Of a stretch of DNA of 58,585 nt, positions 13,736-56,174 are shown piece after piece. The notes under the pieces were generated by a model. The model made no database searches. It had not been told where the DNA came from and saw nothing but the letters and a program-made list of their open reading frames with translations. Each line of letters begins with the position of its first letter. Positions within the stretch are counted from its first letter, which is position 1. A program made the position numbers and the translations under genes. The stretch spans positions 1 through 58,585 of the forward strand of contig JAUXAJ010000002.1 of assembly GCA_030620005.1 (NCBI GenBank), read 5' to 3'. Origin of the DNA: Promethearchaeota archaeon. GTDB taxonomy: Archaea > Asgardarchaeota > Lokiarchaeia > Sigynarchaeales > SOKP01.

Positions 13736-15436
13736 ATGACTGAAGAAATCATTCGAACAACTACCAGTCTTTGCCCAGAATGCTTGAAGCAAATCCCAGC
13801 AGAAATATATGTCGATCCTGAGAAAAACTGGGTAATGATGAGAAAAACGTGCGAAGAACACGAGACTTTCTACGATAAAATTTCTATCGACCCAGATGAT
13901 TATAAATGGTCTCAGACTTTCACGGACGAGATTGGTTCCACCGTAAACATTACGACTAAACCAGAATATTGCTCTTCGGGATTTAAACCAGTAAAAAATG
14001 GGTGTCCTTACGATTGTGGACTGTGCGAAAATCACCAAAGTTCTCCCTGTATCTGCGTGATAGATGTAACTAACAGGTGTAATCTTACTTGCCCAATCTG
14101 CTTTGCTAATGCTTCGGCTAAGGGTTATGTCGTAGAACCTACGTTCGACCAGATAGTTCAAATAATGGAATACTTCCGGTCCATGAAGCCTATATCCTCT
14201 GCATTGCTCCAACTCTCTGGTGGAGAACCAACCATGAGGCTTGATCTCCCCGCAATCATTTGCAAGGGAAAAGAACTTGGCTTTGTTGAAGTCATGCTCA
14301 CAACTAACGGCGTGAAATTGGGAAAATCCTTAGAATATTGCAAAGAATTAGTAGATGCAGGAATGGACGCGCTATATTTACAATTCGACGTGACAGACGA
14401 TCCTGGAGTGTGGAAAAAGATACGAGGCGTTAATCTTTGGCCTTTAAAGAAAAAGGTTATTGAAAATTGCCGAAAAATTGGATTTAAAGGTATCATGCTC
14501 GTCCCAGTGATCGCTAAAGGTGTGAACGACCACTAAGTTGGACCGATCATGGATTTTGCGAAAAATAACGCCGATATTGTTGCTGGCGTCGTTTTCCAAC
14601 CGGTAGCGCTAGTTGGTCGAATTAATTACGAAGAGTTAATGGACTTGAGATATACAACTTCTGATTTGAAACGCGATATTAATAAACACACAAATAACGC
14701 TATCACCAAGTTCTATCCAATAGCTACTACTGCGAAATTAACGAAATTACTCGCATGGTTTGACGACCAACCCGCCTTTGCGATGTTGAGTCATAAAGAC
14801 TGCGGCTTCGCTACTATCTTAATTGTCAACTCTAAGAACGAGTGGGAACCATTAGAGAACTTTTTTGACGGCGTAGGCTTAGTTAAATGGGCAAATAAAG
14901 TTTACGACATGGTTTCTAATAAAGAAGTACCAAAACCCACTGGTTTACTGGGAAGCATCAATTTAAAGGATTATGGAGTAATTGCTGAAACTGTCGGAAA
15001 ATTTATCGATGATATAACTAATCTAGGTTATCGACAAATGATGAAGGCTTATTTCTTCGCTGGCATGTTAAAGTACATTAAAAATCCGCAGAAAATCTTT
15101 ACCAGCAAGACTTATCAGTCGTTTGTTAAGTTAGTGTTCAGACCAAACTTCGCTTCTGCAGAAGGTTTCTTACAAACTAAGAATCTGCTGATATCAGCTA
15201 TGCATTTTCAAGATGCATATAACTTCGACTTAGAAAGAGTTTGTCAGTGTCTTGTACACTACGGTGTAATTGATCCAGATGACCCAAGTAAAGTGAGGGA
15301 GATACCTTTTTGCTCGTATAACACGATCCATAGGCCTATCATAGAAAAAGCACTTGCTCTCCAAGACGCTAAAGCAGAGAAACCGGAAGTCATTCAGGGC
15401 AAAATCGAAAGTTATCTCGAATCTATAAAAGAGTAG
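13736..15436 (+). CDS. tes: Tetraether synthase-like radical SAM protein, interrupted by one in-frame TAA
   Basis: The frame from ATG 13736 to TAG 15436 encodes 565 residues but has TAA at 14534-14536, after KGVNDH and before VGPIMDFAKN. The N-terminal part has a CPEC pair, a CPYDCGLC motif and the radical SAM cysteines in CNLTCPICFA. The C-terminal part ends with CLVHYGVIDP and IPFCSYNTIH. This whole layout is that of the MJ0619/Tes group (COG1964), which joins archaeol chains into membrane-spanning tetraethers. Related proteins continue through the interrupted site, where Gln (CAA) would need one C-to-T change. Both halves lack other defects, so the stop is recent, read through, or a consensus error. 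An upstream TTG (13727) is a less likely start. A T-rich terminator follows. Confidence 0.85.
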
Positions 15437-15441
15437 ATTGG

Positions 15442-15480
15442 TTTTTTTTTTTTTGTTCTTGTCTTTTTTTTATGTTTTTT
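15442..15480 (+). terminator. T-rich transcription terminator of the Tes-like gene
   Basis: Runs of 13 (15442-15454), 7 and 6 T residues follow the stop codon directly. Archaeal RNA polymerase terminates at such T-runs without needing a hairpin. The gene on the other strand starts its 3' end shortly after. Confidence 0.6.
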
Positions 15481-15505
15481 TCTTGTTAATCGTAATATTA
15501 AATCT

Positions 15506-15802
15506 TTATATTATACGGTATTTTTGAATGAATTTACGAAGTTCTTCCGTCCATTTATCGCCATGTTCTGATACAATGGAGTAATATTCATTAAAAACTT
15601 TACCTCTTTCTTCGTATAATTTCATTAATAAATCTGCATCTTCCTGTGAATCTCCTCTTGAAGCCTCAAGTTCCTTCAACCTTTCTTCCAAATTTCTCCC
15701 TTTTTCCCATAAATTATCAAGAAGACTCTTATTTTTTTTAAAAAAAGTCTCTTGAATGCTCTTTAAGCGTACTATATCTCTTTCTAACTTCGATACAGGC
15801 AA
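15506..15802 (-). CDS. Hypothetical coiled-coil protein, 98 residues
   Basis: The protein is almost wholly helical, with heptad-like spacing from LERDIVRLKSIQETF to LEERLKELEAS, and ends in a short basic tail. I do not recognise it. It starts at TTG, preceded by GAGG at a suitable distance, because no in-frame ATG is near. It lies downstream of the TraB-like gene on the same strand after about 185 bases. Confidence 0.5.
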   Translation of the reverse strand: MPVSKLERDIVRLKSIQETFFKKNKSLLDNLWEKGRNLEERLKELEASRGDSQEDADLLMKLYEERGKVFNEYYSIVSEHGDKWTEELRKFIQKYRII

Positions 15803-15987
15803 AGTTATGTCCTCTTTCTTTATTTGTTTTTCTCATGTCTATAATAAAAAAACTCACATAAAAATTATTTTATATTATCCTCAATGATATAATTTTCATA
15901 CATATAAGAGCCCAAGTAATTAGTACGATCATTTTTTTTAAAATTCTTATTTTAATTTTTGCAATTTCTTTTAATAATACTGCTCTA

Positions 15988-18000
15988 TTACCTGTTTAAA
16001 AATATATATTCGTGAGCTATTTTTCTTTTATTCTTTCCTGCAAGAATATGGATGTGTTTAATGGTTTTGAGAGATTCTTGGCTAAAATTGTCAATAGGAA
16101 TATACACGATTTCCCTATTTTTAACACCTGCTAGTGAATAAAAATACTTCCTTGGGGGTTCTTCTGCCAAATAAGCGATATAACGCTCACGGGAGAAAAT
16201 TATGCCTGCTTTTAGAAGTCTTTCGGCTTTATTCTTCACATCTCTATATTCGTAATCCATATATGAACTGAAAACTTCCCGCAACGATCGAGGTGGAAAA
16301 AGGGATAATACGCCTCCAATTTCCACGTGTGAGATTCCGGGTCCAATCAGATAATCTCCTGGATTAGTAGCATAAAACGCCATGTCGCTTTCTTTGTCGT
16401 GCTCTGCCCACCAAGTTAATTTATAAGGGTAAATTTCTTTTTTTCCATCGTCTTTATCAAAAATAACAACAAGCGTGTCAATTTTACCTCGTACTTGTTG
16501 TTCGTTTCGCACGTAGATTTTTTTCTTGAACGCCCAGTTCCTAATGGTCTCTTTTATGGCAATTCCGTCCATTAAACTGGATTTAAACTCTTCGATTTTG
16601 ATGCGTTGATTTTTTAAATTTTTTATTGCTTTTTTTCGAATATAAGCGAAGTAATCTTCTTCCACTATATCTTCTGGCGGATAAGATACAGTTTCCCACT
16701 TTCCTTGTTCCCATTCATTTCTCCAGTGTCCTTCGTACTCTTCTCGTGATCTCTTCTTTAATGGTACTTCCCTTTCTCTTCCATAATCGTAAGGATGGCG
16801 CCTTCTTAATTTTATATACCTTCCATCAGGATCGTAACCTCCTTCCCTGCTTAACTTCAAAGTTTCGTATTTATCGCTTTCATCGTCGTGAGGGTATTTA
16901 CACGCTCTTTCCATCACTTTCCACGCATAATCGTCGTCTACAATATTTTTTGAAGAGACTAATAGGGTGTATAAATTAGGTAACAATCGATTTTCGGTTA
17001 AAGATAAATTTCTTGCATATTAAAACAGAGCTTTTAACTTGTGTAGATCTAAAAACTCCTTAAACTCTTTTTCATATTCTCGCTTTGCTTTTATAACGAT
17101 TGTATTCACGTGATCAATTTTATCATACGAATCTAACGCTTTAAATAAGTCATCTGGCGCTTCAAACTCTTCCATGCGATCTTTTGAGTAATGATCTCTA
17201 AATTTTACCCATTTATACGCGTGATAAGGTAATTCCTTTAAGAGAAATCTCGCATTTGAACTCTTGATATTATATATTTTCGAATACTTGTGAGGAACGA
17301 GTTCTATTTCAACATCTTGAATCTTTTCCGGGCTTTCTAAGTAATATTTAATGCTTTCCCAGTGAGCCATTCCAACAACGAAGAGAATTCTATGGTATAT
17401 GGGCATCATCTTGAGCAAATGACTCGCCATGTATTTCTCTCGTAACACATCTTTCTCTAAGAACTCGTGCGCTTCTTCTGAATTATCTTCTTTCTGAGAT
17501 TCTAATAAATCTTCTAGTTTTATTTTATCCCGAATTTGTTGTTTTCTGGAGAAAAATTCATTTTTAAAGGTTCCAGAAACTTTTTCGTAAAACAGGGATA
17601 ATCCAATTTCATTTACAGCATAATCATCCGGAAGTCTAACGCTCGGTGGCTCGTAACCTTTTACGGACAAATCAATGAACTCTACTGGGACATTGTATTC
17701 CATTCCAAGTCTTATTCCTTCTATTATACTGTCGTCTGGCGAAATTGGAATAAAGTCTAATCTTTTTGGATTTAGAGAATCAGCATAGCCTATCAGAGAA
17801 AGAAAGGGTAACCGTTTAATTGCTTCCATTATCTCGTTTCTAATGTTATTAGGTAATTCTACCGCAATTACATCTGGAAATACTTTAAAAAAAGCAGTAC
17901 GAACCATTTTAGCAAATTCTATCCTCGAATGGAAAGTTGGAATGACATAAATGTTCTTGTATCTTATATAAGGGTTTTTTTCCATGGTAATCTTATTCAA
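15988..18000 (-). CDS. TraB/TIKI-superfamily-like protein with long C-terminal part, interrupted by one in-frame TAA
   Basis: Two open stretches (17020-18000, 326 aa, and 15988-16986, 332 aa) lie in the same frame, separated only by TAA 17020-17022 and ten open codons. The N-terminal part has TFHSR, PDVIAVELP and, after a helical insert, REKYMASHLL and LFVVGMAHW. These are the conserved spots of the TraB/EreA/ChaN-like (TIKI) superfamily of putative metal-dependent hydrolases. Sequence across the stop (KALF, stop, YARNLSLTENRLLPNLY) reads as one continuous protein of about 670 residues. The C-terminal part has VDDDYAW but no family I can name. An independent start for the second half would have to be TTG 16986. 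One C-to-T change from CAA would explain the stop. A MoxR ATPase gene lies about 1.5 kb upstream on the same strand. Confidence 0.65.
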
Positions 18001-18232
18001 AATCGTGTAAATGTGGTTAAATATAATTATTAGAAATGTATTTCATTATATTCGTCGAATTGACCTAATAAATATTTTTTCGTTTGGAATTTAGCTTGAA
18101 AAATCTATAGGTTTATTATTAATCTTAATAATTATTTTAATTATAAAAAAGATTTAAAATATGCATTAAAAATTGATGCTTAAAAATGATTATTAAAGAG
18201 AATTCTCAACAAAAAAAAATGGGGAAAATAAA

Positions 18233-19342
18233 GTGAATTTAAATATTGGAGTAATTGGAACGGGCGCGATTGGATCAATCCATTTAATTTCGTTAAAGAA
18301 AATAATAGAGAGCAAGTTGCTCTCTAAACCTGGTGTGAATCTAAATATTAAAGGTATCGCCGATGTTGACGAAAACAAAATAAAAAATCTAAAAAGAAAC
18401 AACCCTTATAATGCAGATTTATTAACTACTAATCCAGATGAGCTAATTAAAGACAAGACTATTGATGTGATATACATATCAAGCCCTACAAAATTTCACA
18501 AAGAATATTACCTTAAGGCTGCGGAAGAAGGTAAAAATATCTTCTGCGAAAAGCCACTTGCGTTCTCCTTGGCGGATATCAAGGAAATGTTGACTCACGA
18601 AAAAAGATACGGGATTTTCACGCAAGTAGGTTTAGTGTTACGTCACTGTCCCGTGTTTTGGAAATTAAAACAAGTTTTATCCGAAAAAAAAGACGATTTA
18701 GGTAAGGGTTTATCTTTTATATTTAGAGACGTCCAAGAATGGCCGATAGGAACGCGTTTTCACCCATCAGAATGGAGAAAAGACCCTTCTTTAGCGCATG
18801 CTGGGTGTCTATATGAACATAGCATCCACGATGTGGACATGCTTGAATATCTTTTCGGTGATGATTTAACGCTTTCGAGTCTATTTGCCAAAATTCGCTA
18901 CGTTTCTCCTTTATCCCAAAATAGGCTTGAAGATATTGCCACGTTAAAATTTGAATATAAAAACGGATTTGTAGGAGATTTAACAAGTATATGGAATCGC
19001 GCAAGATTAGACGAAAGAAGACTAGAAATATTCTTCGAAAATGCGTTTCTCCTCTTAGATGGATTCACTGGATATTCTTTTAATAAATGCGAACTTCTCG
19101 TCAAAAGGAAGAAAACTAGGTTTAAAATGAATGATATCGTTGCTGAATATGATAAAAAGATGAATTATCCTCAAATCACGCCGACCACGGGGCATTATTT
19201 ATTTGAAAGTTTAAGTTTTTTAGAATCTCTAATTGCTGAGAGGAAGCCTTATCCTGGGTTAGAAATAGGATTTAAAGCGCACGAAATTATCGAGCTCGCT
19301 TATCAATCTTCCAACGAGAATAAAAACATGGTTATTTCTTAA
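18233..19342 (+). CDS. Gfo/Idh/MocA-family oxidoreductase
   Basis: This 369-residue protein has the NAD(P)-binding GTGAIG motif at residues 9-14 and the family EKP motif in CEKPLAFSL. The C-terminal half carries HSIHDVDMLEYLFG, the usual His-containing segment of the alpha/beta substrate domain. These enzymes oxidise or reduce sugars, inositols or similar polyols. The start is GTG 18233; the upstream ATG at 18219 is out of frame. It lies alone on the plus strand between the minus-strand MoxR and TraB-like genes. A second family member is at 46938-47984. Confidence 0.85.
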   Translation: MNLNIGVIGTGAIGSIHLISLKKIIESKLLSKPGVNLNIKGIADVDENKIKNLKRNNPYNADLLTTNPDELIKDKTIDVIYISSPTKFHKEYYLKAAEEGKNIFCEKPLAFSLADIKEMLTHEKRYGIFTQVGLVLRHCPVFWKLKQVLSEKKDDLGKGLSFIFRDVQEWPIGTRFHPSEWRKDPSLAHAGCLYEHSIHDVDMLEYLFGDDLTLSSLFAKIRYVSPLSQNRLEDIATLKFEYKNGFVGDLTSIWNRARLDERRLEIFFENAFLLLDGFTGYSFNKCELLVKRKKTRFKMNDIVAEYDKKMNYPQITPTTGHYLFESLSFLESLIAERKPYPGLEIGFKAHEIIELAYQSSNENKNMVIS

Positions 19343-19473
19343 AGATCAAATTTATTTATTTTATCGGGTATCTAATAAAATCATTTTACTTCTCTTTTAA
19401 CTATTTTATCAATACCCTCTTCGAATCTTTCATATTCGAAGTATGGGATTTTACATGATAACGCTATAAATTT

Positions 19474-20385
19474 TTAAAGATTCTCTTCATTAGAGTTTAA
19501 AAAATCAAAGCGAATAGACTCTTTCTGTTGTTTTTTCAGAAATTGTTCGTATTCGTCAGGGCAATACCTTGTCGCTCCTTCTTCTAAAATGTGAAGAATT
19601 GCATCTTTGAATTCCCTTTTATTTAGTTTATTTGCGTCTTTTCCATTTAACACTTTTGTTTTCATGTAATACCTTACGATGTTAATTCCATCTCTAATGG
19701 TATGTTCGTCGTGTTCGTGGGAATTCTGGAGGAAATCCACGCAATAATTTAAAATTTCTTCCGATCCAAATGGTAAATTATATTTCAAGATTTTTAATTC
19801 ATCGATTCTATTAGGATATTCAACCATTATGCGCGGTTGCAAGCGAGACTGAATGTACTCTGGAACTTCGTATGTTGAAGAGTCAGAATTCATTGTAACG
19901 CATAATCGGAACTCTTGATGAGCATAGATTCTAATCCCTGCGATGATGCTATCAACATAGCGTCGTTTGTCCATTAACGATGCCAAGGAAGCCCAACTTT
20001 TTTCGCTCATTCTATTCCCTTCGTCGAGTAAACAAACACCACCTTTAATCATGGCGGATACTAAAGAACTCGCAACATAAGCAATTTTATTGTTTGAAGC
20101 AATTACAGGGCTTATTAATAAATCCTCTGGTCTTGTATCCATCGTGCACTGAAAAATGTACACATCTTTTGTAAGTCTCTTGCCAGCTGCATAGCCTAAA
20201 GTTGTTTTACCGATACCCGGTTTACCAAGTATTCTTGGATTTAGTGGAAGATCGTTCTCATCAATAATTAACCAGGCTGATTTTAGTTCATTTATCAAAT
20301 CATCATTTCCAACCCAATCCATCTCAATTTTGGCAGGTTCGGTTAATCTTAATTCGACACCAGAAATCACTACTTTTTCTGTCAT
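19474..20385 (-). CDS. MoxR-type AAA+ ATPase, with open frame continuing past its TAA
   Basis: This 303-residue AAA+ ATPase has Walker A GKPGIGKTT, Walker B GGVCLLDEGNR and a sensor 1 in LCVTMNSDS. The MoxR/RavA type remodels proteins, often with a VWA-domain partner; none is seen here. The frame remains open after the TAA at 19474-19476 for 30 codons. These read KFIALSC, KIPYFEYERFEEGID and KIVKREVK and end at TGA 19381-19383. That tail is protein-like, so the native C-terminus may be longer. Gln (CAA) to TAA by one C-to-T step would fit. The TraB-like gene is the next gene on this strand, so the two may form a functional pair. Confidence 0.85.
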   Translation of the reverse strand: MTEKVVISGVELRLTEPAKIEMDWVGNDDLINELKSAWLIIDENDLPLNPRILGKPGIGKTTLGYAAGKRLTKDVYIFQCTMDTRPEDLLISPVIASNNKIAYVASSLVSAMIKGGVCLLDEGNRMSEKSWASLASLMDKRRYVDSIIAGIRIYAHQEFRLCVTMNSDSSTYEVPEYIQSRLQPRIMVEYPNRIDELKILKYNLPFGSEEILNYCVDFLQNSHEHDEHTIRDGINIVRYYMKTKVLNGKDANKLNKREFKDAILHILEEGATRYCPDEYEQFLKKQQKESIRFDFLNSNEENL

Positions 20386-20440
20386 ATTAAATTAATATTT
20401 TAAAAGAATAAAATAATTTTTCTTGTTATTATTGAAAATT

Positions 20441-21024
20441 TTATGCTTCAAAAAATTGCTTCTTAAAGGTCAAACCATTAGTTTTTAGATTTTTCTTCCA
20501 AAAGTTTTTTCTATTTGGAATTTGATATACTAATTTTAAAAAAGTAAGTTCAATTATTTCTCCAGATTTAGCGGAAGTCTCAGTTAAATCATCGGCATTT
20601 TTTTCATTAACAAATTTAAATCCATCTTTCGTTGAAATCATCTTATTGCCTATTAAATCAAATTAATTTCCAATCAATACGAAAACCCCTTCTCCCTTTG
20701 TAAGTTCTTTAAACTTTCTCAACTATGGTGATTCTATGCTTCCAAAAGTGGAAGATTTTGTAACATTATGGACTAATAATGCGCCTACAACATTTTTATA
20801 GCATAAAATTCGAAGTTTCTTGTACTTTTCTTGGCCAACAAAATCCCAAATTATCAATCACAGGTGCCCGTTTATTTCATCGACAATTCTTTCTTTTCTA
20901 ACAATATCCACACCTAAAGTCGGAGAACAATCTTTTTTAAATTTTTTTTCAATATATTGATTAACTAAGGAAGTCTTTCCTACTTTTTCATTTATGAAGT
21001 TAATGAATGATTTATCTTTAAAAA
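20441..21024 (-). pseudogene. Decayed Rab-like small GTPase
   Basis: A single reverse frame aligns with the intact GTPase at 25341-25880: VGKTSLVNQYIEKKF, PTLGVDIVRKE, IIWDFVGQEKY, then ETSAKSGEI. It contains three internal stops: TGA where the paralogue has Arg, TAG where it has Trp, and TAA in the G4 motif at the Lys of GNKKDL. The P-loop start is also lost, because FINEKVGKT replaces LGDSAVGKT and no start codon is in frame. The 66-residue open piece at its 3' end is only the tail of this relic, not a gene. Confidence 0.88.
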
Positions 21025-21213
21025 ATCATAGATATTTGAAAAATAATTATTGATAATTTTGTTTAAACGAACCTTTAGTTAAGATGGTTAATGGAGAAGA
21101 GTTTTAAAACCATCTTGTTTAACGGCAATTTCAAAAAATCTAATGGGAAGAATTATTTTTGAGTTAAAAAAATATTAATTTGAAGAATTATTAAAACAAT
21201 AATCTAATGAGTA

Positions 21214-37386: not shown

Positions 37387-37918
37387 TTAATCCTTCTGAA
37401 AAACGATCATGAACTGGCAATAAGTGTTTCCAGATTGTAAACTGCAGTTTAATTCTTGGGCAAAACAATGAAAGTTGCTTGTGCTTGTTTTTATCATGTT
37501 TTCAACAAGTCCCGCTAATAATCCTGCTTCAAATGAACAAAAATTTCCTTTAGTTCGCAAGTCTTTATTAACAAGGTCTTTACTTGAAGAATGTCCCTTT
37601 AATTTTAATTCTACAATTTCTTCCGAACTATTTGTAATTTCAATTTCTCCGATATGATATTTTTCAATCGAACTTATCAACGCTTCAGGAATTCTAGATA
37701 GTGTATCAACTTGTTTTACTTTTAAAAAAGTCCCTAGTTCATGACCTAGGTAATAAAAGATAGCTTCAAGTTGGTGTCCTAATTTTAGGGTTCCAGTAAT
37801 TCTAGAATTCTATTTACCTCGCTAATAAGGCGCCAACTTTCATATCTCCAATTTCTTTACCTTCTAACAATCTAGTTTTCATGATAGCTAATATTTTTGA
37901 AAGCAGTTGTCGATCCAT
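37387..37918 (-). pseudogene. Broken V4R-domain protein gene
   Basis: The open 3' part (97 codons) has NFCSFEAGLLAGLVENMI and a final CQFMIVFQK, the metal-binding C-terminal part of a V4R domain. Upstream in the same frame lies KLGHQLEAIFYYLGHELGTF. From ATG 37918 another frame gives MDRQLLSKILAIMK up to DMKVGALLAR and TAA. A third frame bridges the two with EVNRILELLEP. At least two frameshifts are therefore needed to rebuild one protein of about 170 residues. Confidence 0.7.
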
Positions 37919-38978: not shown

Positions 38979-39455
38979 GTGAGGTTCGTGCCACAAGACT
39001 TCAACGAAATGATGTTTTGTCAAGACTGCCAAATGAATGCGTTTCCCTCTCGACCGAAATTTAATGCTAAATCTTTCGGAATTTGTGCGCTGGTTCTGCT
39101 CCCTATTATTATTGCTAATATTCTTCTTTTCCAGGCGTTTGCGTGGTTATTTACTTTTCTTTTTTTCATGTGGGGTTTCATGATCTTGAATCCTCATGCG
39201 ATCGTTTACGGCCTAAAAAAGAAGCAGTATTGTCCAAGGTGTCATCAAAAACTTATAGAAAAGAACCAAAACTATCGGCCATTTGGAGAAATTGATCCAG
39301 AAGTATTCAGGTCATTAGCACCTTCTAATAAACCAGAAACTCATGTTAGTAATAAAGTCAGAGTAAAATGGTAATGTCCTTTTTGTGGTGATGCTATGAA
39401 TAGGGACGGTAAGTTCTATACAGCTCGTGGAAGAAGATTTGAAATCAACAGGTAG
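38979..39455 (+). CDS. Zinc-ribbon membrane protein, interrupted by one in-frame TAA
   Basis: The first 131 codons encode an N-terminal CQDC pair, two membrane spans (ALVLLPIIIANILLFQAF and WLFTFLFFMWGFMIL) and a CPRC pair, then TAA at 39372-39374. The same frame continues CPFCGDAMNRDGKFY and ends with RRFEINR and TAG 39455. CPFCG is a typical zinc-knuckle half, so the stop splits a zinc site. A single change from Gln (CAA) or Tyr (TAT/TAC) would create it. Start is GTG 38979. PncC follows ten bases after the final stop, so the full-length frame also fits operon spacing. Function unknown. Confidence 0.65.
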
Positions 39456-43192: not shown

Positions 43193-44907
43193 TCACATCT
43201 CTTCCAATGTTTCTATTCCTAAAATGTATAAACCTGTTTTAATAACGATTTGAACGCATTTGATGAGCAATAATCTTGCTTTTTCTAATTCCTTGTCGTC
43301 AGAAATGACGGGGCATGAACTATAGAATGAATTAAACGCTTGTGTAAGATTTAAGAGATATTGAGGAATTAAATGAATCCCATAAGTGTTCATTGATGTC
43401 TCTATAATTTCTGGAAAATAATTTAATTGTTTAATTAAACTTAGCTCTTTTTCGTGTTTTAAGAGTTGGTAATCAATATTTTCAGAAATTTTTTCGTCTG
43501 CCTTATTAATTATAGATTGTATCCTGGCGTAGCTGTACTGTACATAAGGTCCCGTCTCACCTTCAAAAGAGATGTTTTCTTTTGGTTTAAATACAAATTC
43601 AGTTTTAGGATTAAACTTAAGAATGAAAAACTTTAATGCTGCCAATCCAATAATCTCAGACCTTTTAATTTTAACCTTTTTTCTAGTGAGGGGTATCTTT
43701 TATTAACTTCTTTATAAGCAAGGTTTTGCATTTTTTCTAAAATATTGTCCGCGTCTACAACTGTTCCCTCTCGACTCTTCATTTTTCCTTCTGGTAAACT
43801 AATCATTCCGTAAGAGAGATGGAATTTATCTTCTTTAAAACCAATCATATCTAATATGGCGAAGAGTTGCTTGAAGTAGAGGTCTTGTTCGTTTCCGACA
43901 ACATATATGGACTTATCGTAATCATAATCTCTCTTTTTAATATACGCTAAATAGATGTCTTGAGTAATATAGATGGATGTTCCATCACTTCGAAGTAATA
44001 TTTTATCAGGAATGTTGTATTTTTCTTTTAACTTCGCAATCACAGCCCCATCTTTTGTTTTTTTTAAAATCCCCTTTTTAAAATTATCTAAAATTATATC
44101 CTTGCCTTCTTTATACAATTTAGATTCAAAATATTCTTTATTAAAAGAAATATTAAATTTTCTATAAGTCTCCCTAAATCCTTTTAAGGCCCATTTATTC
44201 ATTTTTTCCCATAACAATAATGTCTCGGGATCCCTCAATTCCCATAAATTCAATAAATTTTTAGCTTCCTCAATTAACTTTTCGTCTTTTTCTTCCATTT
44301 TACTATATTTAATATAAAAATCGCCAACAAAATGATCAGATTTAATATTTTTAGGTTCTTGATCGTTGCCCCATTTTTTATACGCTAACATGCTCTTGCA
44401 AATATGAATCCCTCGATCATTGTTCAAATTGACCTTATACACTTCATGGCCTTTATACTTTAATAATGAAGAAATCATGTTTCCTATTAGCATGTTCCGC
44501 ACATGTCCTAGATGTAATGGTTTATTAGTGTTCGGTGAGGGAAATTCTACCACAACCTTAAGAGAATTAAGTTTTTTATTTCCAATAATATCTCTTAATT
44601 TACCATAGTCTTTTTCGTGTCTAAAAACATTTTCCAAAATGCCTGATGTTTTGACTCTAAAATTAATATATGGGCCAATTGCTTCAATTTTTTCTAAAAA
44701 TTCAGGTAAAGATAAATTTTTAACTAATTCTACAGCTATTTGTTTTGGAGCCTTCTTTTCGAACTTGGCCAGTCGAAAGCAGGGGAATGCATAAGTAAAA
44801 CTAAGCTCTGAAGGAGGGATTTCTATTAAATTTTCAATTTCATCTATAGTAAAATGTTTTATATGATCACTTAAATAGCGTGCTATTGTTTTTTTATTAA
44901 CTAACAC
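43193..44907 (-). CDS. argS: Arginyl-tRNA synthetase, split by one frameshift
   Basis: From ATG 44907 the frame has the N-terminal tRNA-binding domain, the catalytic HxGH motif in PLHLGHVRN, and the KMSK-like MKSREGTVV, then stops at 43633 after DWQH. The C-terminal part continues in another frame as IIGLAALKFF, ENISFEGETGPYVQYSY and the anticodon-binding DALR-like end IETLEEM with TGA. One extra A in the six-A run near 43672-43677 (GAAAAAAGG) would join them as EKKVKIKRSEII. ArgS is essential and no other copy is visible, so this is either a homopolymer error in the assembly or a slippage site. The operon continues into speB with overlapping codons. Confidence 0.92.
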
Positions 44908-46543: not shown

Positions 46544-46885
46544 ATGACTGACGAAAAAATTTTATAGAAATGGGATGAAACTGAGGGAGATTTTGTTCCT
46601 ATTAAATCAAATGGGGATATGGGCGAAGGAGTCTTTTTAGAACTCAACGAAGTGGAGAAGCAATGGAGATATTTTTATATTGATGGAGCATCGCTAATCA
46701 CTCGGCGAATTGCACTAAGAAATGCGAATGGAATCGCTAAAACTGGCTATATTCCTCCCAAAAATAACATCCGCTATGGTAAAGAATGTAAGCTCGTAGA
46801 AGAGAAATCACCTTACGAAGACATGCCCGATGTTCTCAAACAATCTCAAAGAAAATGGTATAAAGGAGATTACACAGAATTTTAA
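46544..46885 (+). CDS. Unknown protein, interrupted by one in-frame TAG
   Basis: From ATG 46544 the frame reads MTDEKIL, TAG at 46565-46567, then KWDETEGDFVPIKSNGD and runs to TAA 46885, 113 codons in total. Downstream open sequence (WRYFYIDGASLITRRIALR, KTGYIPPKNNIRYGKECK) looks like a compact beta-rich protein. A start within it (ATG 46619) would drop the first 25 residues. Reading Gln (CAG) at the stop restores the frame. I do not recognise the family. It follows the DegT gene on the same strand after about 290 bases. Confidence 0.5.
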
Positions 46886-48036: not shown

Positions 48037-48300
48037 TTAATTACTTTCCTTTTTCTCCCAAAATTCGTTTGCAGTTAAAATTTTCGCAATTTTTGAGAAC
48101 GGACGAGCAAAAATGCATTTACCACAATCGCTGCTATTCTCGACCCAAAATTCAAAACATTTTTCGACATCTACATGATATTTTCTAACGCCAGGATTAT
48201 TTGATATCGATTTGCCTTTAATGTCTGATTCCTTTTACGTGGAAATTGCTTCATTTTCGCACGCTTCTGCATACATGAAACAATTTTTGCTACAATTTTT
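48037..48300 (-). pseudogene. Relic: reductive-dehalogenase-like 4Fe-4S C-terminal part
   Basis: The reverse frame ending at TAA 48037 reads KYHVDVEKCFEFWVENSSDC, then GKCIFARPF. In RdhA and related double-cluster proteins this position reads VDAEKCFxFWxENGxDCGxCIRVCPF, so the last cluster Cys is replaced by Arg here. Upstream in frame are NCFMYAEACENEAIS and an internal TAA. The first cluster cysteines are mostly lost and no start is present. The open 65-codon frame overlapping it is in another frame and is not a gene. Confidence 0.65.
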
Positions 48301-48888: not shown

Positions 48889-49092
48889 TCAAGATTTTTT
48901 TTCCACGAATTTAACTAAATCTGGTACGCGAACGGATTTAGTGCACAACCTCAAGCTTTTTCCACTTTTTTTGAGATATTTTCCAACTTTTTCTTAATTT
49001 TGATTAAACGCGTCGAGATCGCATATAACCAATGGAAATTTTTTATCTTTCACAAGGGTTTTTAATTCTTCGTAAGAGGTAGAAATTAACAT
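48889..49092 (-). pseudogene. Relic: N-terminal part of a D-threonine-aldolase-like PLP protein
   Basis: From ATG 49092 the reverse frame reads YEELKTLVKDKKFPLVICDL, then DAFNQN, TAA, EKVGKYLKKSGKSLRL and TKSVRVPDLVKFV, and stops at TGA 48889. PLVxxDLDAFxxN followed by GKxLRxxxKSxxxPxL is the start of the alanine racemase/D-threonine aldolase type barrel, with the PLP Lys in the TKS motif. Only about 67 codons remain of a normal 370. Confidence 0.65.
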
Positions 49093-49237
49093 TGATAATG
49101 CTTGATTTAATATATTAATTTAATTTTAAATAATAATACATTTATTAATTAAAACCTTTAAATATACATTATTTAAACATTATTTTTATAGCCTAAAAAA
49201 TCCATTAAAACAGCATTTATATCAAGTGTTATTAATA

Positions 49238-49768
49238 ATGTACGACGGAGTTTATAAAATTATAATTATTGGTGATGCAGGTTGCGGTAAGACTTCACTT
49301 ACCCAAAGATTTTTAACAAGTTTATTCAAACCTGACAGCTCAATGACTATTGGTGTTGATTTTGAAGTAAAAAGTCTTAATATCAAAAATCTGAAGATAA
49401 AACTTCAAATCTGGGATTTTGGAGGCGAAGAACGCTTCCGTTTTTTACTTCCTACATATGTAAAAGGAGCTAACGGCGGGTTGTTCATGTACGATATTAC
49501 GAACTATTCTTCCTTGGCACATATGGATGATTGGCTATCCATTATTAAAGAGGCGGTTGGTAACGATCAAGTGTTCCCCATACTTGCTGTTGGTGGAAAG
49601 GCAGACCTTGTTGACGATCGTGAAATATCTAGTGAAGAAGGCATAAATGCAGCGAAATTAAGAGGCGTAGAGGGATTCATAGAGTGCAGTTCCAAAACAG
49701 GAGAGAATGTAGATCTTACCTTTGAAACATTAACAAGAATGATGCTACAAAATAGCAATTTATTATAG
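49238..49768 (+). CDS. Ras/Rab-like small GTPase, DFGG subgroup
   Basis: This GTPase of about 176 residues from ATG 49238 has P-loop GDAGCGKT at residues 12-19. G3 is DFGGEE with Glu at the catalytic Gln position. G4 is GGKADL, where NKxD is expected, so the guanine-specifying Asn is replaced by Gly. G5 is SSKTGEN. It shares G3 and the SSK G5 with the GTPase at 1056-1574. An in-frame GTG 12 bases upstream is an alternative start. Unusual G3 and G4 residues make it a candidate for altered hydrolysis or nucleotide affinity. No prenylation motif. Confidence 0.9.
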   Translation: MYDGVYKIIIIGDAGCGKTSLTQRFLTSLFKPDSSMTIGVDFEVKSLNIKNLKIKLQIWDFGGEERFRFLLPTYVKGANGGLFMYDITNYSSLAHMDDWLSIIKEAVGNDQVFPILAVGGKADLVDDREISSEEGINAAKLRGVEGFIECSSKTGENVDLTFETLTRMMLQNSNLL

Positions 49769-49933
49769 ATCAAGATAATAAATATTAAGAATCAGGTTTT
49801 TCTAATCCATTTTTTTATTTATTTTATTGAATTTTCATCGTGTTAAAAATTTTAGAGATTTTCGCCGTAAAACATGATGTAAAAAAAAATGGCGAATGCC
49901 TTTAAATTATTATTAAATCACGTCGTGATTTAT

Positions 49934-50953
49934 CTATAGCTCTGATTCCTCTAATTTTAGAAAGGTATAAATAAATGCTATAGCGAACAAAAAGCCAGAC
50001 GAAATCAAGCTCAAGATTCCAAGGGTTTCAAAAAATTCAATCTCAAAATACGAAAAAATTAAACTGGAACCAATGAAAATAACTGCTAAAATATATCCCA
50101 AGAAGTATGAGCGAAATGAACGATCTCTTCGTTTTCCGTTCACGAAATTCACGATAAATACGAGAACTACTATACCAAATCCAATGTAATAGAATAAATC
50201 CACTATTTCAAACCCATACCAAGCTAATAGGAATAAGAAGACGAATAATATTAATTCAAATAACTTAATTCCTAGCAAGGTCTTAGATTCTGTGTTATCT
50301 TCAAATATTTGTTCGTATTCAGCAACTCCCTGATTTGTAATCAAAACTATGAAAGATCCGATTCCTAAAGCAGTACATAGAGTATAGGAAAGTATGTATA
50401 TGAAATTAACCATGGGGGTCCATATTTGTTCAAACAAGAATTGAGCTAAAATCATGTAATCCGGCAAAATGGATATAAAACAAAAGATTGGGATTATTGA
50501 AAACAGAACCATCGTGAACTTGGTTAAATTTGAAACTTTCGGATCGTCCCAGCTTTCTTTACCATGTGTCGTTAAACGCCACGCCATAGAAGAAAAACTA
50601 AGGATTGAAACAATAGGCGTGGCTAAAGGGATAAACCAAATAAGGGCCAAGAATCCTGCAATTATTCCATAAAAAATCTTTAACCTTAATGGAATTACTC
50701 CCGTAAGATTATCCATGTTATCAATGGAAGCAGCTACGCGTTTTGCAAATAGAATTAGAAAGAATAACCAAGATACGGAAAATACAATTGGACAAAGTAT
50801 TTTTATTACTAAAAAGTTCAAAGTAGCGTTGCTTGTATACCATAAACCAAAATCAACTAAGTAAAAGATAAAGAAAGTAATTATTGGAATCAAAATTATT
50901 GAAATTACGACGATTAACCGACTTAAAACAATTCCTTTTACCTCTTTCGGCAC
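49934..50953 (-). CDS. Polytopic membrane protein, 339 residues
   Basis: About nine hydrophobic segments cover the protein, from IVVISIILIPIITFFIFYLV at the start to GFLFAIAFIYTFL at the end. Only short loops are charged; there is no recognisable transporter or enzyme motif. I do not recognise the family. It lies between a GTPase gene and the ABC transporter unit and has an AT-rich gap on both sides. Confidence 0.7.
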   Translation of the reverse strand: MPKEVKGIVLSRLIVVISIILIPIITFFIFYLVDFGLWYTSNATLNFLVIKILCPIVFSVSWLFFLILFAKRVAASIDNMDNLTGVIPLRLKIFYGIIAGFLALIWFIPLATPIVSILSFSSMAWRLTTHGKESWDDPKVSNLTKFTMVLFSIIPIFCFISILPDYMILAQFLFEQIWTPMVNFIYILSYTLCTALGIGSFIVLITNQGVAEYEQIFEDNTESKTLLGIKLFELILFVFLFLLAWYGFEIVDLFYYIGFGIVVLVFIVNFVNGKRRDRSFRSYFLGYILAVIFIGSSLIFSYFEIEFFETLGILSLISSGFLFAIAFIYTFLKLEESEL

Positions 50954-51122
50954 GTTTCCATTAAACTCCTTTATTTGTAAAATTATTGATATTAATAATT
51001 AATAATAAATCTTATACAAATAATTATTTTTAACCTTTAAAAATTTAATAAAAAAACCATAATGAATTTCAAATCGAAAAAAATAAATACAACAAAAATA
51101 AAAAAAGGAATTTAATAAGTAA

Positions 51123-51806
51123 TTAAACAATGTGTCCCTTGTCCATTCTTATTATTCTATCAGCCGCTTTAGCCACTGTGTCTCTGTGAGTAATAAGCAA
51201 AACCGTCGTCTCATAGTCGCTATTAATTTGCTTTAATAGCTCAATTATCTTTTTTTCGGAATCCGGATCTAAATTTCCAGAAATTTCATCACCAAAAATA
51301 ACCCGTGGTTTACCTACAAGAGCTCTAGCTAGAGCAACTCTTTGTTTTTCTCCACCGCTCAATTCGGAGGGAAAATGATCCTTTCTCTCGAGCATGTTCA
51401 CATCTCTTAAAGCAGCAATTGCTCTATCTTCAATTTCTCTCGATCTAAGGACGGTAGGCCATAATAAAGCTTCTATATTTTCGATTGCGGTGAGAGATTT
51501 TATGAGATTAAAGTCTTGAAATACAAAACCAATTTTTTGACGTCTTATCCTGCTTAATCTCGCCTCAGGAGCGCGAGCAATGTTTTCACCGTCGAAAATT
51601 ATTCGCCCCTTATCAGATAAATCTAACCCGCTCATTACATTGAGGAGAGTTGATTTACCACATCCGGTAGGACCTTGTATGCTTACAAACTCCCCCGCCT
51701 TGATGGTAATATTTACATCCACTAAAGCCCTTATAATAGCTCCTGCTCTCCTGTATTCTTTATTAACATCAATACATTCTATAATTGTATCTTTATCTAC
51801 TGGCAT
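51123..51806 (-). CDS. ABC transporter ATPase, LolD/MacB type
   Basis: This 227-residue ATPase has Walker A GPTGCGKST at 45-53, the Q-loop in FVFQDFNL, signature LSGGEKQRVALARAL and Walker B VIFGDEISGNLD, with H-loop LITHRDTV. The sequence type is that of LolD/MacB/FtsE-like ATPases that work with FtsX-fold permeases on lipids, peptides or mechanotransmission. GGAGGTC lies before its start. The FtsX-like permease gene ends 20 bases upstream, so the two form a transporter. Confidence 0.93.
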   Translation of the reverse strand: MPVDKDTIIECIDVNKEYRRAGAIIRALVDVNITIKAGEFVSIQGPTGCGKSTLLNVMSGLDLSDKGRIIFDGENIARAPEARLSRIRRQKIGFVFQDFNLIKSLTAIENIEALLWPTVLRSREIEDRAIAALRDVNMLERKDHFPSELSGGEKQRVALARALVGKPRVIFGDEISGNLDPDSEKKIIELLKQINSDYETTVLLITHRDTVAKAADRIIRMDKGHIV

Positions 51807-51826
51807 ATTTTTTGACCTCCTTTTAA

Positions 51827-52375
51827 TTATTCACCTGGTTTCTTTAATGCTATAATTGGGCGCACCTTGAGAATCTTTCTATTTGCCAAAATGATTGCAA
51901 GCACCTGAACTATTAGGAATAATAAAAATGTCAATACTACTGGTACCAATGTTATTAAGATAGAAGGTAGTGTTAATAATAATTGTTCGTTCTGCAAGTA
52001 TGCCATGACTGCCGCATAATGAAATAGAGCTTCAACAACTATTATAAAGCCGATAAAAGTAGTGAACAATATTATCCCGGTTACAATACTATTGATGTTT
52101 CTGCTCGTATATCCAATACATTTAAAGATAGCCCAAGTCCTCTTATTTCGACTCACAATTATCCAAGCGTATAACAATGAAAGACCAATACTAACAACGA
52201 AAAATATAATTATGAAATAGCTAGAAAATCCACCACCATCATCCGCATATAAAGTGGTCTCAATGAAAAAACTCGTTAAAAAGATCAGTGACGTGTAAAT
52301 AAGTGTGAATATCACGAATGTCTTTTTCTCGCGAAGAGTCATTAACACCGCCTTTCTCCATAACCTAAACGCCAT
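51827..52375 (-). CDS. Minimal FtsX-like permease, 182 residues
   Basis: The protein starts RLWRKAVLMTLREKKTFVIF, the typical cytoplasmic segment and first helix of MacB/FtsX permeases. It then has the three-helix FtsX domain with WAIFKCIGYTSRNINSIV and ends KVRPIIALKK, also typical. The large extracytoplasmic domain that normally lies between helix 1 and the rest is absent: only about ten residues (YADDGGGFSS) are present. So it is about half the usual length but keeps intact ends. It is paired with the ATPase gene downstream. Confidence 0.75.
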   Translation of the reverse strand: MAFRLWRKAVLMTLREKKTFVIFTLIYTSLIFLTSFFIETTLYADDGGGFSSYFIIIFFVVSIGLSLLYAWIIVSRNKRTWAIFKCIGYTSRNINSIVTGIILFTTFIGFIIVVEALFHYAAVMAYLQNEQLLLTLPSILITLVPVVLTFLLFLIVQVLAIILANRKILKVRPIIALKKPGE

Positions 52376-52513
52376 TTGAATTCACTTCAATATTTTTTGT
52401 TTTTTAATTCGATTTATTTTTGATTTTTAATAATTTTTTGTGTTACTAATATAAAATTCTAACAATAAAATCTTTTTGTTTGGGCGTCACTCTGTTTTTT
52501 TTTTATTTTAAAT

Positions 52514-52587
52514 TTTTCGTAAGAATTTTTATAATAATAATTTGATTAGTAATATAAAAGTATTATAAATTTTCGTAAGAATTTTTA
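52514..52587 (+). promoter_or_regulatory. Direct repeat before the profilin-like gene
   Basis: TTTTCGTAAGAATTTTTA occurs at 52514-52531 and again at 52570-52587, the second copy ending two bases before the ATG. TTC-GTAA-GAA inside each copy is a small inverted repeat. Either a regulator-binding site pair or a duplicated leader is possible. Confidence 0.45.
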
Positions 52588-52589
52588 AA

Positions 52590-52991
52590 ATGTCTGATGT
52601 AGAATCTATTATCGACGAGCTCTTGAATCAAGAACAAAATATATTTGGAATTGCTATTATAGGAAAAGACGGAACATTAATTACACAAACTAGTAACTGG
52701 GATGTTAGTGGCGATATCGCAACAATAAACGAATTGATTCAAAATAATCCCGAACTCGGTGAAAAGGGTATTACAAGTTTATCCGTTCAAGGATTAAAAT
52801 ACATGATTGTTGAAAACACAAAAGAAAGAAAAATAGGCACGAATATATCCGGGAAGGGGCACTTGATAGTTGCACCTGTACCCGTTGGTGGTGCCGGCGC
52901 GTTAATTTGTTACATTAGCGCTCAAGCTGGTCCAAGGGATTCATTATTCGCTATTCAAGAATTTGCAAAGAAGCTTGTGGATCTTATATGA
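52590..52991 (+). CDS. Profilin-like protein (roadblock fold is the alternative)
   Basis: This 133-residue protein begins with an acidic helix and strand FGIAIIGKDGTLITQTSNWD. It then has GDIATINELI, SLSVQGLKYMIVENTKERK, the loop ISGKGHLIVAPV, strand GALICYISA and a final helix FAIQEFAKKLVDLI. This order, with the conserved Trp in SNWDVSG and the GKGHL segment, resembles Asgard profilins, which bind actin-like proteins. Roadblock/LC7 domains share parts of this fold and cannot be excluded. It has its own promoter region with a direct repeat. Confidence 0.6.
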   Translation: MSDVESIIDELLNQEQNIFGIAIIGKDGTLITQTSNWDVSGDIATINELIQNNPELGEKGITSLSVQGLKYMIVENTKERKIGTNISGKGHLIVAPVPVGGAGALICYISAQAGPRDSLFAIQEFAKKLVDLI

Positions 52992-53028
52992 AATTTTCTA
53001 TTTTTTTTATTTAATATTTCTATTTTTT

Positions 53029-54120
53029 TTAAAGGAATTTCCAAAACACACTTAAAATATTTGTTAAGGCCGATTTAATCTTTAAGATTTCGACCTTTTT
53101 AGATTTACTTGAGAAATCTATAAATTCAAATGCCGGTCGTTCATATTTTTCATTCAATAATGCTCTTAAAACAGAATGCACGCAATATGGTAACCCTATT
53201 AAACTATAACCTCCTTCCAAAATGAAGGTTAACCTTCCTTCGCACGTTTTTTCCGCTAAATTTAACATTTTTTCCGCAAATTTAAAGTAAGAATAGCTCG
53301 TTAAATTGCAGTTTCCAATCGGATCGGCGAAGTACATGTCAAAACCCATTGCTATTATTATTAAGTCGGGATTATATTCTTTTAAAATTGGTTCAACCAA
53401 GTCCACAACCTCTAAAAAGTCGTCGTCACCAATGCCTGCGGGGATCGGAAAATTAATGTTTGTACCTAACCCCTCTTCTACACCTAGTTCATTTAAATTG
53501 CCTAAATCGCCTTCTAAAAAGTCAAATTCGTGGATAGAGAAATAAAGCACGTCGGGATCCTCGTAAAAATAATGAACCAAACCGTCCCCGAAATGGTCGT
53601 CAATATCTATTATTGTGATTTTTTTATCGTATTGTTTTTCTTTTCGAAGGTATAAAATGGCATTAGCGATATTATTAAAAATGCATAATCCTGAGGCTCG
53701 TTCCGGTAGAGCGTGATGTCCGGGAGGTCTTACAATCGCAAACGACTGATTTACTTTTTTTGTTAAAATATTTTCAATTGCTTCTATTGTTCCACTTACC
53801 GCTTTTTTAGCCAGGTAAAAAGTATCTTCTGTCACGAATACTTCATCGCTCAACAATCCGCTTCCAAAAATTGACAAGTTCTTTATTGAATCAACGTGGT
53901 AGTTTGTGTGTGCAAGTTTAATTACTGACTCGTCGATTTCTTTAGGGATTATTCTCACGATTCTTTCGTCTTCAAGCATTTTAATCTTATCAAAATATTC
54001 TAAAATCGCTTTAATTCTTAGTGGGCTTTCAAACGATTGAAATGCGGGATTTGGATAGGGAGGAACGTGTTTTGAAGCGAAATCATCGTCAATAACGATT
54101 CCAATTTTATTTTTCGTCAT
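53029..54120 (-). CDS. HDAC-like deacetylase (class II / acetylpolyamine amidohydrolase type)
   Basis: This 363-residue protein has the arginase-like deacetylase fold. The His pair is in RPPGHHALPE (His135-His136). Zinc ligands are Asp174 and His176 in DIDDHFGDG, and Asp261 in GFDMYFADP. The catalytic Tyr is in EGGYSL. Substrate may be an acetylated lysine or an acetylated polyamine. The second His after His176, present in many HDACs, is Phe here. An N-terminal DDDFASKHVPPYPNP segment is typical of class II relatives. It is monocistronic by spacing. Confidence 0.9.
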   Translation of the reverse strand: MTKNKIGIVIDDDFASKHVPPYPNPAFQSFESPLRIKAILEYFDKIKMLEDERIVRIIPKEIDESVIKLAHTNYHVDSIKNLSIFGSGLLSDEVFVTEDTFYLAKKAVSGTIEAIENILTKKVNQSFAIVRPPGHHALPERASGLCIFNNIANAILYLRKEKQYDKKITIIDIDDHFGDGLVHYFYEDPDVLYFSIHEFDFLEGDLGNLNELGVEEGLGTNINFPIPAGIGDDDFLEVVDLVEPILKEYNPDLIIIAMGFDMYFADPIGNCNLTSYSYFKFAEKMLNLAEKTCEGRLTFILEGGYSLIGLPYCVHSVLRALLNEKYERPAFEFIDFSSKSKKVEILKIKSALTNILSVFWKFL

Positions 54121-54434
54121 GATAAAAAATTTAATTTCTTCGTGTTTATTTTGTAATAGATCAAATGAATTTATTTTAACGTGTAAACAAGTCTTATTAC
54201 AGAATTCTTCAAATATATTATTTCAGTTTTATTAAGTTGAAAAGGAAAGATAAAAAATTAAAATAAAAAGAAAGGTTTTAGAGTTTAAGTTCTTTAATTT
54301 TCATTTGAATTTCTCTCATTTTAAAAATACCTTAATAATTAACAATTTTCATTATTTGATTATCTAATTATCTCTCACGAAGAAATAAGCATTCCTTTAT
54401 AATTAAAATTCATTACTTATTATTTTTCAATTCG
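54121..54434. other. Gene-free AT-rich gap
   Basis: No gene is visible. A 13-codon reverse frame (MREIQMKIKELKL) ending near 54286 is too short to support. The promoter of the HDAC-like gene presumably lies at 54121-54180. Confidence 0.35.
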
Positions 54435-55238
54435 TTAATCTGGAATTGTAGCAACCGCTCGAACCCATCCCGCGCTGCCCCTCGCAATCTTTACTGGAAA
54501 ACAATAAATTGTTGCCCCGACTGGTGGTACCTTGTCTAAATTCGTCATTTTTTCCATCTGAAAGTATCCCAACTCTCTTCCGGCAAAATGCCCTTCCCAA
54601 ATTATTGATGTATCAGGATTTTTTTCTCTTACCGATTTTTTCCACTTTTTTGCCGTGATGGAAAAGGGCGCGTCCCACGACCAAGCGTCAATACCAATGA
54701 CGTGAACCCCTTGTCTTACTATGTGTAGTGTTGCTTCCTTTCCCACGCCTACTCCGTGGTCAATGTATTTCTTGGTTCCATGATGTTTTGGAGCGTTAGT
54801 ATGAACGCATAAAATATCTCCTTTTTTTAATTTGTGACCAATGTCTTCAAGTTTTTTATCAATATCGTTAGGAGTCATTATATATCCTTCTTCGTAATCC
54901 GTGCAATCCAATACTATTAAAGGTCCAATGCCCCATTCTAGTGGAAAATCGTCTATTGTCATGGCTTTTTTCTCTCCAATTTCTTTATCTTGGATTGGAG
55001 CGAAATGCCAAGGAGCGTCCATGTGGGTTCCACTGTGAGTCCCTAAAGTGATTGATTCTACGGCCCATCCTTTACCGTCGGGTAAGTGCTTGTCTGGTTT
55101 TAACCTTGGGAATACAAAGCCCATCTGATCTGCCCCTTCATCGTGAAGGGTATATGTAATGGAAGGACGCGTCAAGGGGGGATCAAAGACGGCTTCATCT
55201 GGATTTATAATAGGAATGGATAAATCTATAAATTTCAT
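54435..55238 (-). CDS. Cyclase / kynurenine-formamidase-like metal hydrolase
   Basis: The protein, about 267 residues, matches the cyclase family (PF04199). The metal motif THSGTHMDAPWHF gives ligands His, Asp and His near residues 71-81, counted from the upstream in-frame TTG. DLSIPI near the N-terminus and CVHTNAPKHH follow. Family members hydrolyse N-formylkynurenine or isatin-type amides. The size and extra PRLKPDKHLPDGKGW segment fit the longer bacterial/archaeal branch. ATG 55238 is taken as start; TTG 55247 is in frame. No tryptophan-degradation genes are nearby, so the substrate is open. Confidence 0.87.
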   Translation of the reverse strand: MKFIDLSIPIINPDEAVFDPPLTRPSITYTLHDEGADQMGFVFPRLKPDKHLPDGKGWAVESITLGTHSGTHMDAPWHFAPIQDKEIGEKKAMTIDDFPLEWGIGPLIVLDCTDYEEGYIMTPNDIDKKLEDIGHKLKKGDILCVHTNAPKHHGTKKYIDHGVGVGKEATLHIVRQGVHVIGIDAWSWDAPFSITAKKWKKSVREKNPDTSIIWEGHFAGRELGYFQMEKMTNLDKVPPVGATIYCFPVKIARGSAGWVRAVATIPD

Positions 55239-55412
55239 AAGATCCAATCTGATAGTATCTTATTAAAATTTTATTTTTTCGCTTGAAAATAAATTTAAAT
55301 TAAAATTTCTATATCTAAATTAGAAAAATAAGTCTTGGTGTTTGGATTTAGTCTTTCCTAATGAATAGTAGTATTAGTTTATTTTTTGGTATATATATAT
55401 TAATTAATAACC

Positions 55413-56174
55413 TTAAACAACATCAAGATCTATAAATTTTAGTAGTCCTAATGAATTTAAATGATATAAAATTTTCTGCACTTCCCTTGCAGGCATTCCT
55501 AATTCTTCGGCAATCTGCTCAACTGTTCTAAAACCATTCATCATGTGAGCTATCTCATATTCTTTCGCGTTTAAAAAACCTTGAGTAATGACTTGTTTGG
55601 GCAGTCTCTTCGAAAACCAATCAAAATTTTTCTCTCGATTTGTCATCAAATCGTTTTTAGAGATGATAAGGTCTTTTTTGGACAATAAATTAAATGTTCT
55701 TTTAAATTGTCTTCTAAAAACTTTTAGGAGAGGAATTCTTAATGTAATTTCCGCAATAGCACCATTCTTTAAGATTTTATCGATAGTTTCTTTAAAATCT
55801 AAAAAAATATTAATGTTAGTATTCCAATTTTCAAGGACCTTGCCATATCTTACATTAAATCTGTTAATAAGATTGCCAAGAGCTTCGTGAACGATTTTAT
55901 TATCATCGATATTATCAAAAGCAGAAGCAATAAAAACGTCCCCCTCAGTTAATAACATTAAAGAATAACGTTTCATATTTTTACTAATGGGTAGGATCTA
56001 ACCATTAATTATAATTTTAAGTTCTCTACTACCTTTGGAAAACCCAACAGAAACGTCTTTAATGATTTGTATGTATCCTGAAACTATATCTTGATTAAGA
56101 TCAAGGGTGCCATATATTCTATAAACTAAACAAATTCCAGATTCATTATGGATAACATAAATACTATGAATAAT
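55413..56174 (-). CDS. Longin-like domain with C-terminal winged helix; in-frame TAG and non-canonical start
   Basis: From ATG 55976 the frame gives 187 residues ending in a helix-turn-helix (GFRTVEQIAEELGMPAREVQ). Upstream in the same frame, past TAG 55998-56000, lie about 58 codons reading IYVIHNESGICLVYRIYG, DLNQDIVSGYIQIIKDVSVG and GSRELKIIING. Those are the first strands and helix of an Asgard longin-type domain, whose remaining strands (RYSLMLLTEGDVFIASAF) lie in the open part. The full protein would be about 253 residues. CAG (Gln) to TAG explains the stop. No ATG starts the frame; ATT 56174 takes its place. Confidence 0.65.

Follow-up and report, generated by a model that had tools for sequence, protein, structure and literature searches.

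Do the single in-frame stop codons that interrupt several otherwise intact genes on a Lokiarchaeon contig (JAUXAJ010000002.1) have one cause? The stretch of DNA analysed here, called the window, comprises 58,585 bases at 32.6% GC. A first-pass annotation had described one recurrent pattern, a single TAA or TAG per gene at sites where Gln is a plausible ancestor, in Tes, TraB-like, the tail of MoxR, a small gene at 46544 and longin-wHTH. Interrupting stops are indeed present in four of these genes, but they represent a mixed set of causes rather than one phenomenon. At least two interruptions are very probably short archaeal introns of the bulge-helix-bulge (BHB) type in Lokiarchaeon protein-coding genes. 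The inserts recur at one site per gene across genomes, have a fold with paired changes and restore the conserved protein when removed, and the tRNA-splicing endonuclease EndA and the ligase RtcB are encoded in most of the intron-bearing relatives tested. The earlier observation was half right, and the cause was missed at its most interesting site.

The longin-wHTH gene is located on the reverse strand at 55413..56174, from an ATT start (56172-56174) to a TAA stop (55413-55415), and has orthologues in Lokiarchaeia. It is interrupted by a predicted 30-nt BHB intron (55979..56008, reverse strand) that includes the in-frame TAG (55998-56000). This TAG is without an orthologous residue, since it lies inside the insert: relative to intronless orthologues, 30 extra nucleotides are present at the same codon in the window and in loci L016 and L017. 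In a class-level sample of 83 Lokiarchaeia genomes, which was used for the longin-wHTH, V4R-like, rtcB, cbf5 and covariance-model searches, a longin-wHTH match at E <=1e-20 was identified in 70. The match is near full length in 59 genomes (manual row count), and the insert is found in five (G010, G006, G040, G072 and G035). Absence of the insert was read from DNA in 33 intronless rows of the tree set and elsewhere inferred from a stop-free search row. The insert is 30 nt long in the window, G010, G006, G040 and G072 and 29 nt in G035, where the frame is lost unless the insert is excised, because 29 is not a multiple of three. Mutation, base error or leaky readthrough, as previously offered for the whole pattern, does not explain a TAG that sits in an intron-like insert common to five other genomes.

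All six inserts fit one arrangement of TTAT, a 3-nt bulge, a stem-loop, RTAR and a second 3-nt bulge. The core (3-nt bulge, 4-bp helix, 3-nt bulge) is present in each, with four of four central helix pairs formed, and in each the conserved frame is recovered by cutting after the second nucleotide of the bulges. The junction product after excision is GELKVIDMQ in the five relatives and RELKIINMK in the window. In a pair analysis that covers the longin intron only, 92.8% of 83 cells are paired and 5 of 14 pairs are altered on both sides. The covariation score is 0.390, compared with at most 0.195 when slid, and none of 500 shuffles scored equally high. Dinucleotide shuffles that matched the fold numbered 5, 0, 0, 1, 0 and 0 per 1000 for the six sequences, and 1, 0, 0, 0, 0 and 0 in a rerun. 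A covariance model of the intron recovered the five known copies at E <=2.5e-9 (runner-up 0.04) and, with strict filters, no other convincing copy in the 83 genomes; sequence-divergent BHB introns would escape it. A phylum-wide search of 227 genomes, 110 of them with a longin match, identified internal stops nowhere beyond the five known genomes. When the 187 post-intron residues of the window copy were used as the query, a 187-residue protein encoded on an 858-base contig was 93% identical to them, which is compatible with a sister strain interrupted likewise but does not prove it.

A second interrupted gene, absent from the earlier list, is V4R-like (37387..37918, reverse strand). Its two exons lie in different frames. 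The gene is only loosely assigned, as the Pfam V4R and DUF2507 matches on the homologue in G011 are both below cut-off. A 37-nt insert (37783..37819, reverse strand), read here as a BHB intron, splits the gene between GALLA and LGHQ. The exon helix is CTTA/TAGG, the central helix TTAG/CTAA (4/4 pairs) and the bulges CG|A and AA|T; excision would give VGALLALGHQLEA. V4R-like matches occur in 68 of the 83 genomes, and 67 span the insert site (manual count). Inserts at this site were identified in four relatives: G065 and G076 (39 nt each), G010 (30 nt) and G054 (38 nt). An exon helix with 4/4 pairs and 3-nt bulges are present in all five sequences, and in all five excision restores GALLALGHQLEA. 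The V4R-like gene at L269 (G064) has an indel of CATGA repeats at another place, which we do not read as BHB.

The third host, rtcB, is interrupted outside the window. It is split at GGVGY|DINCG, within GYDINCG, which we take to be the catalytic motif, by 29 nt in both G035 (L301) and G065 (L302). In both, a 9-bp stem accompanies a TTGG/CCAA helix with two 3-nt bulges, and the reading frame is recovered once the insert is removed. The central helix has 4/4 pairs in both, and 0 of 1000 shuffles were as good in either case. A match to rtcB was found in 75 of the 83 genomes, and the only stop-bearing row besides these two is G081 (L303). Its 30-nt insert with a TGA at LPD|AHQGYG is at another site and has 3/4 central pairs; its BHB-like fold, though strong, is relaxed, and it was not counted as an intron.

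The full set thus contains 13 sequences in three genes (longin-wHTH 6, V4R-like 5, rtcB 2), 12 of them distinct. By comparison across genomes, these candidate BHB introns in Lokiarchaeia protein genes are well supported. From the sequences we infer splicing itself, EndA and RtcB as its agents, and any regulatory role. The transcript around each insert is predicted to form a stem-loop. Beside it, the last bases of the exon would pair with the end of the insert in a 4-bp helix, flanked on both sides by 3-nt bulges. Cleavage by EndA would fall after the second nucleotide of each bulge, and RtcB would then ligate the exons. Excision would remove the stop, and also the frameshift where the insert length is not divisible by three.

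Genes for the required machinery were identified in most genomes searched. EndA is encoded in all eight genomes tested, with two copies in G010, G006, G040, G072, G035, G036 and G011 and one in G004, so that each of the five longin-intron genomes has two. RtcB was found in nine of ten. The two unlike EndA copies recall the hetero-oligomeric form of the enzyme, which in crenarchaea has been associated with unconventional BHB motifs (PMC2738675).

The remaining interruptions are of a different kind. In the Tes-like radical SAM gene (13736-15436, forward strand) a TAA is present at 14534..14536, and in the TraB-like gene (15988-17997, reverse strand) a TAA is present at 17020..17022; both are substitutions only, at Gln sites. 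The TraB-like site is Gln in 13 of 13 contigs (Q 119, R 1 in 120 proteins). The Tes site is more variable, with Q 7, E 3 and C 1 in 11 contigs and Q 82, E 33 and C 5 in 120 proteins. The small conserved gene at 46544-46885 (forward strand) carries a TAG at 46565..46567, where Leu is found in 7/7 relative genomes (8 loci, one genome contributing two). ArgS (43193-44907, reverse strand) loses its frame in a run of A (43655..43686) that is one base shorter than the frame of its relatives requires. None of these is an intron: Tes, TraB-like and 46544 have no extra bases relative to relatives, and ArgS is one base short with nothing added.

These four single lesions fall within 40,263 covered nt of the window, whereas 19 other Lokiarchaeal loci, with 195,566 covered nt between them, showed no clear single lesion on reading by eye; the density in the window is more than chance. 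The count sets aside stops in 5' extensions and opposite-strand shadow open reading frames (in the window, the one at 12699/12774). Two weak events, each resting on one subject, were not read as clear: three stops in L003 and, in L004, a repetitive gene with a frameshift. Few invariant positions are altered, 1 of 121 in TraB-like and 4 of 187 in Tes, in an analysis that used, by length, 99 of 120 TraB-like and 118 of 120 Tes homologues. Because nearly all invariant residues are kept, Tes and TraB-like fit error or very recent mutation best, and both were functional until very recently or still are. The full-length protein searches for these two genes cannot return half-length homologues, so they would miss a sister strain that shares the stops.

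Thus, for the lesions in Tes, TraB-like, 46544 and ArgS, the probable causes are errors in the sequence or mutations of very recent origin (recent null alleles), which are alike in appearance. We lean towards sequence or assembly errors over biology, given the clustering of lesions, the retention of invariant residues, and the form of the ArgS lesion, a single missing A within an A run in a gene that gives one match in each of 11 of the 12 relatives. A recent null allele would look identical, however, and true gene remnants in the window indicate that gene loss occurs. In addition, for changes at invariant sites the window ranks 7th of 119 rows for Tes, inside the range of other long branches, as it does for TraB-like (23rd of 100).

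Some gene decay is real. A small-GTPase remnant (20430..21100, reverse strand) has three in-frame stops, and a C-terminal remnant with one stop is present at 48052..48300 (reverse strand). G011 holds the whole gene for the latter, with 365 residues, which we presume to be reductive-dehalogenase-like. To this extent the first-pass annotation was right about gene loss, which does not explain longin-wHTH. Also present is a zinc-ribbon gene on the forward strand with a TAA at 39372..39374, before a decaying C-terminal zinc ribbon. The site is His in 8, Phe in 8, Tyr in 4 and a gap in 1 of the 21 orthologues that reach it. This stop is probably ordinary loss of the C-terminal part, because the matches in G010, G036 and G035 likewise end before that part and the window ribbon has lost cysteines. 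The MoxR-like gene (19474..20385, reverse strand) has no lesion; in seven relatives the alignment ends at or near the window TAA and is followed by short unalignable tails.

Could the inserts themselves be gene-breaking hairpin insertions, and the interrupted genes pseudogenes? Without splicing, a stop is met inside the insert in all 12 distinct cases, the window contains true remnants, and its longin copy sits on a very long branch. This explanation is nevertheless improbable. The inserts recur at one codon per gene with precise frame restoration, and the exons that follow them are still conserved (66-75% identity to the query in search rows), even behind inserts of 29, 37 or 38 nt. The window longin copy aligns with the query orthologue over 239 residues with no gap and no further stop. 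Moreover, no intron stem-loop was found elsewhere in 304 fetched loci, in line with the covariance-model result.

Several observations do weigh against BHB introns. Intron-bearing rows do not group together on the tree of 39 longin proteins: the six require six changes, branches starred in the tree force four of these, and the intron label clusters no better than when shuffled (500 of 500 as low). Therefore loss is frequent, or gain is frequent, or the intron is mobile. The window longin copy is very divergent, with an end branch of 4.19 compared with a median of 0.074, which makes its function less certain than that of the orthologues. Because the six longin sequences share ancestry, the shuffle controls are not fully fair and kinship is not fully controlled, and the exon helix flanking these introns is weak (2/4 pairs). 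In V4R-like, the central helix has 3/4 pairs in four of the five sequences, two of which are identical, and the fold is weak on its own, with equally good shuffles per 1000 numbering 24-25 for the window, 115-127 for G065, 1-6 for G010 and 16-26 for G054. The case for a V4R intron is built on site, frame and recurrence, and not on fold statistics. As for the machinery, RtcB was not found in G006 among the ten genomes searched, the EndA count leaves out G065, G076 and G054, and the machinery count leaves out the window's own genome.

Programmed bypassing or readthrough, in which translation skips the hairpin or continues across it, would also account for short stop-bearing hairpin inserts, which resemble the element in T4 gene 60. 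Bypassing expects matched take-off and landing codons, but by one definition of landing the take-off codon differs from the triplet before resumption in 12 of 12 junctions. Readthrough leaves the frame-changing inserts of 29, 37 and 38 nt unexplained, and the two-bulge geometry fits EndA. We regard this explanation as very improbable.

Decoding of the Tes and TraB-like stops as Gln by a suppressor tRNA or leaky decoding is close to negligible as an explanation: although both are TAA codons where most homologues have Gln, in genes that look constrained, 48 apparently intact genes in the window end normally (TAA 28, TGA 11, TAG 9), other substitution stops are at Leu and His/Phe/Tyr sites, the window is without a tRNA gene, and Gln is expected anyway at a TAA made by transition because, among sense codons, CAA alone is a single transition from TAA. 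The 48 normal ends exclude full reassignment, as had been argued before, and together with the differing residues at the stop sites they rule out reassignment or suppression as a common cause. CAA to TAA change at Gln, proposed earlier, is compatible with Tes and TraB-like and needs no recoding. It does not extend to 46544 (Leu), MoxR (a normal end) or longin-wHTH (an insert). When the conserved residues were compared, as the first-pass annotation had advised, Gln was usual at two of the five listed sites, too few to point to suppression to Gln.

We found no tRNA gene in the 58,585 bases of the window, and an Rfam scan of it gave no match reaching the gathering score. ARAGORN identified six tRNA genes in L054-L110 of G011 (~1.14 Mb, about half of the chromosome). 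Many other tRNA genes of G011 may carry introns beyond the ARAGORN setting, which would explain the few detected. Many window genes follow the gene order of the complete G011 chromosome, and the TraB-Tes-MoxR neighbourhood is recurrent in Lokiarchaeal contigs.

The longin-wHTH gene was also one of two thought to have lost an ATG. Its start is instead a shared non-AUG start, because the aligned codons are non-AUG in many orthologues and in-frame stops occur just upstream in G010, G036 and the window. Across 38 rows (the window and orthologues in L174-L210) the start-aligned codon is ATC in 9, ATT in 5, ATA in 3, ACG in 3 and GTT in 1 (21 in all), compared with ATG in 6, TTG in 10 and CTG in 1. 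G072, whose row is misaligned at the start, was excluded from these counts; its sequence shows ATG CTT CAT. A Shine-Dalgarno-like GGTGAT (56183..56188, reverse strand), recognized by reading the sequence, precedes the ATT start. In the other such gene, at ~12300, an in-frame ATG sits five codons upstream.

A modelled orthologue of longin-wHTH is of modest quality (mean predicted local distance difference test score, pLDDT, 66). The structures that it matches comprise chains of GATOR1 complexes and the longin domains of Sec22b and Ykt6. Since the whole-chain template modelling scores (TM-scores) of the top match are low (0.31 and 0.22), only the longin part of the predicted fold is credible. 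The Pfam wHTH match, seen on an orthologue, is weak.

The neighbourhood of this gene links it to the splicing ligase. In 31 of 47 loci, representing 26 genomes, rtcB adjoins longin-wHTH; it is downstream on the same strand in 30 and divergent in L025, and several of the remaining loci are too short to judge. Inside the window, no rtcB adjoins longin-wHTH. Given this and the long end branch, the window gene may be a diverged or relocated copy.

BHB introns in mRNAs have a precedent in crenarchaeal cbf5 pre-mRNA (Watanabe 2002; Yokobori 2009, PMC2738675). The candidates described here differ in host (longin-wHTH, V4R-like and rtcB), in lineage (Asgard archaea) and in length (29-39 nt). They do not belong to the cbf5-intron family, which is defined by its host, and cbf5 has no stop inside the match in any of the 80 Lokiarchaeia with a match, among 83 searched. 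They share the fold, and presumably the enzymes, of archaeal tRNA and rRNA BHB introns, but are in mRNAs. According to a 2020 paper, the intron in crenarchaeal cbf5 mRNA was the sole further BHB intron reported by then; the paper itself adds a BHB processed by EndA in the 5' untranslated region of the Haloferax HVO_1309 mRNA (PMC7714728). Both HVO_1309 and the genes studied here would be mRNA substrates of the splicing endonuclease, the latter by prediction, but the HVO_1309 BHB is in the leader rather than in the reading frame. A literature search that covered titles, abstract openings and some passages, with subscription papers and preprints outside it, gave no such Asgard mRNA case.

Splicing could also serve as a control circuit, a tentative idea to which we give rather less than even odds. 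Full translation of longin-wHTH, located just upstream of rtcB, would have to wait until EndA and RtcB excise the intron, and the same would hold in some species for rtcB, whose intron interrupts the active-site motif. The machinery would thereby license or tune its own synthesis, and the non-AUG start might add a second, translational control. In practice, gene callers will truncate such genes or label them pseudogenes. If the introns are real, three genes are added to the known hosts of BHB introns, all in Asgard archaea and including the splicing ligase.

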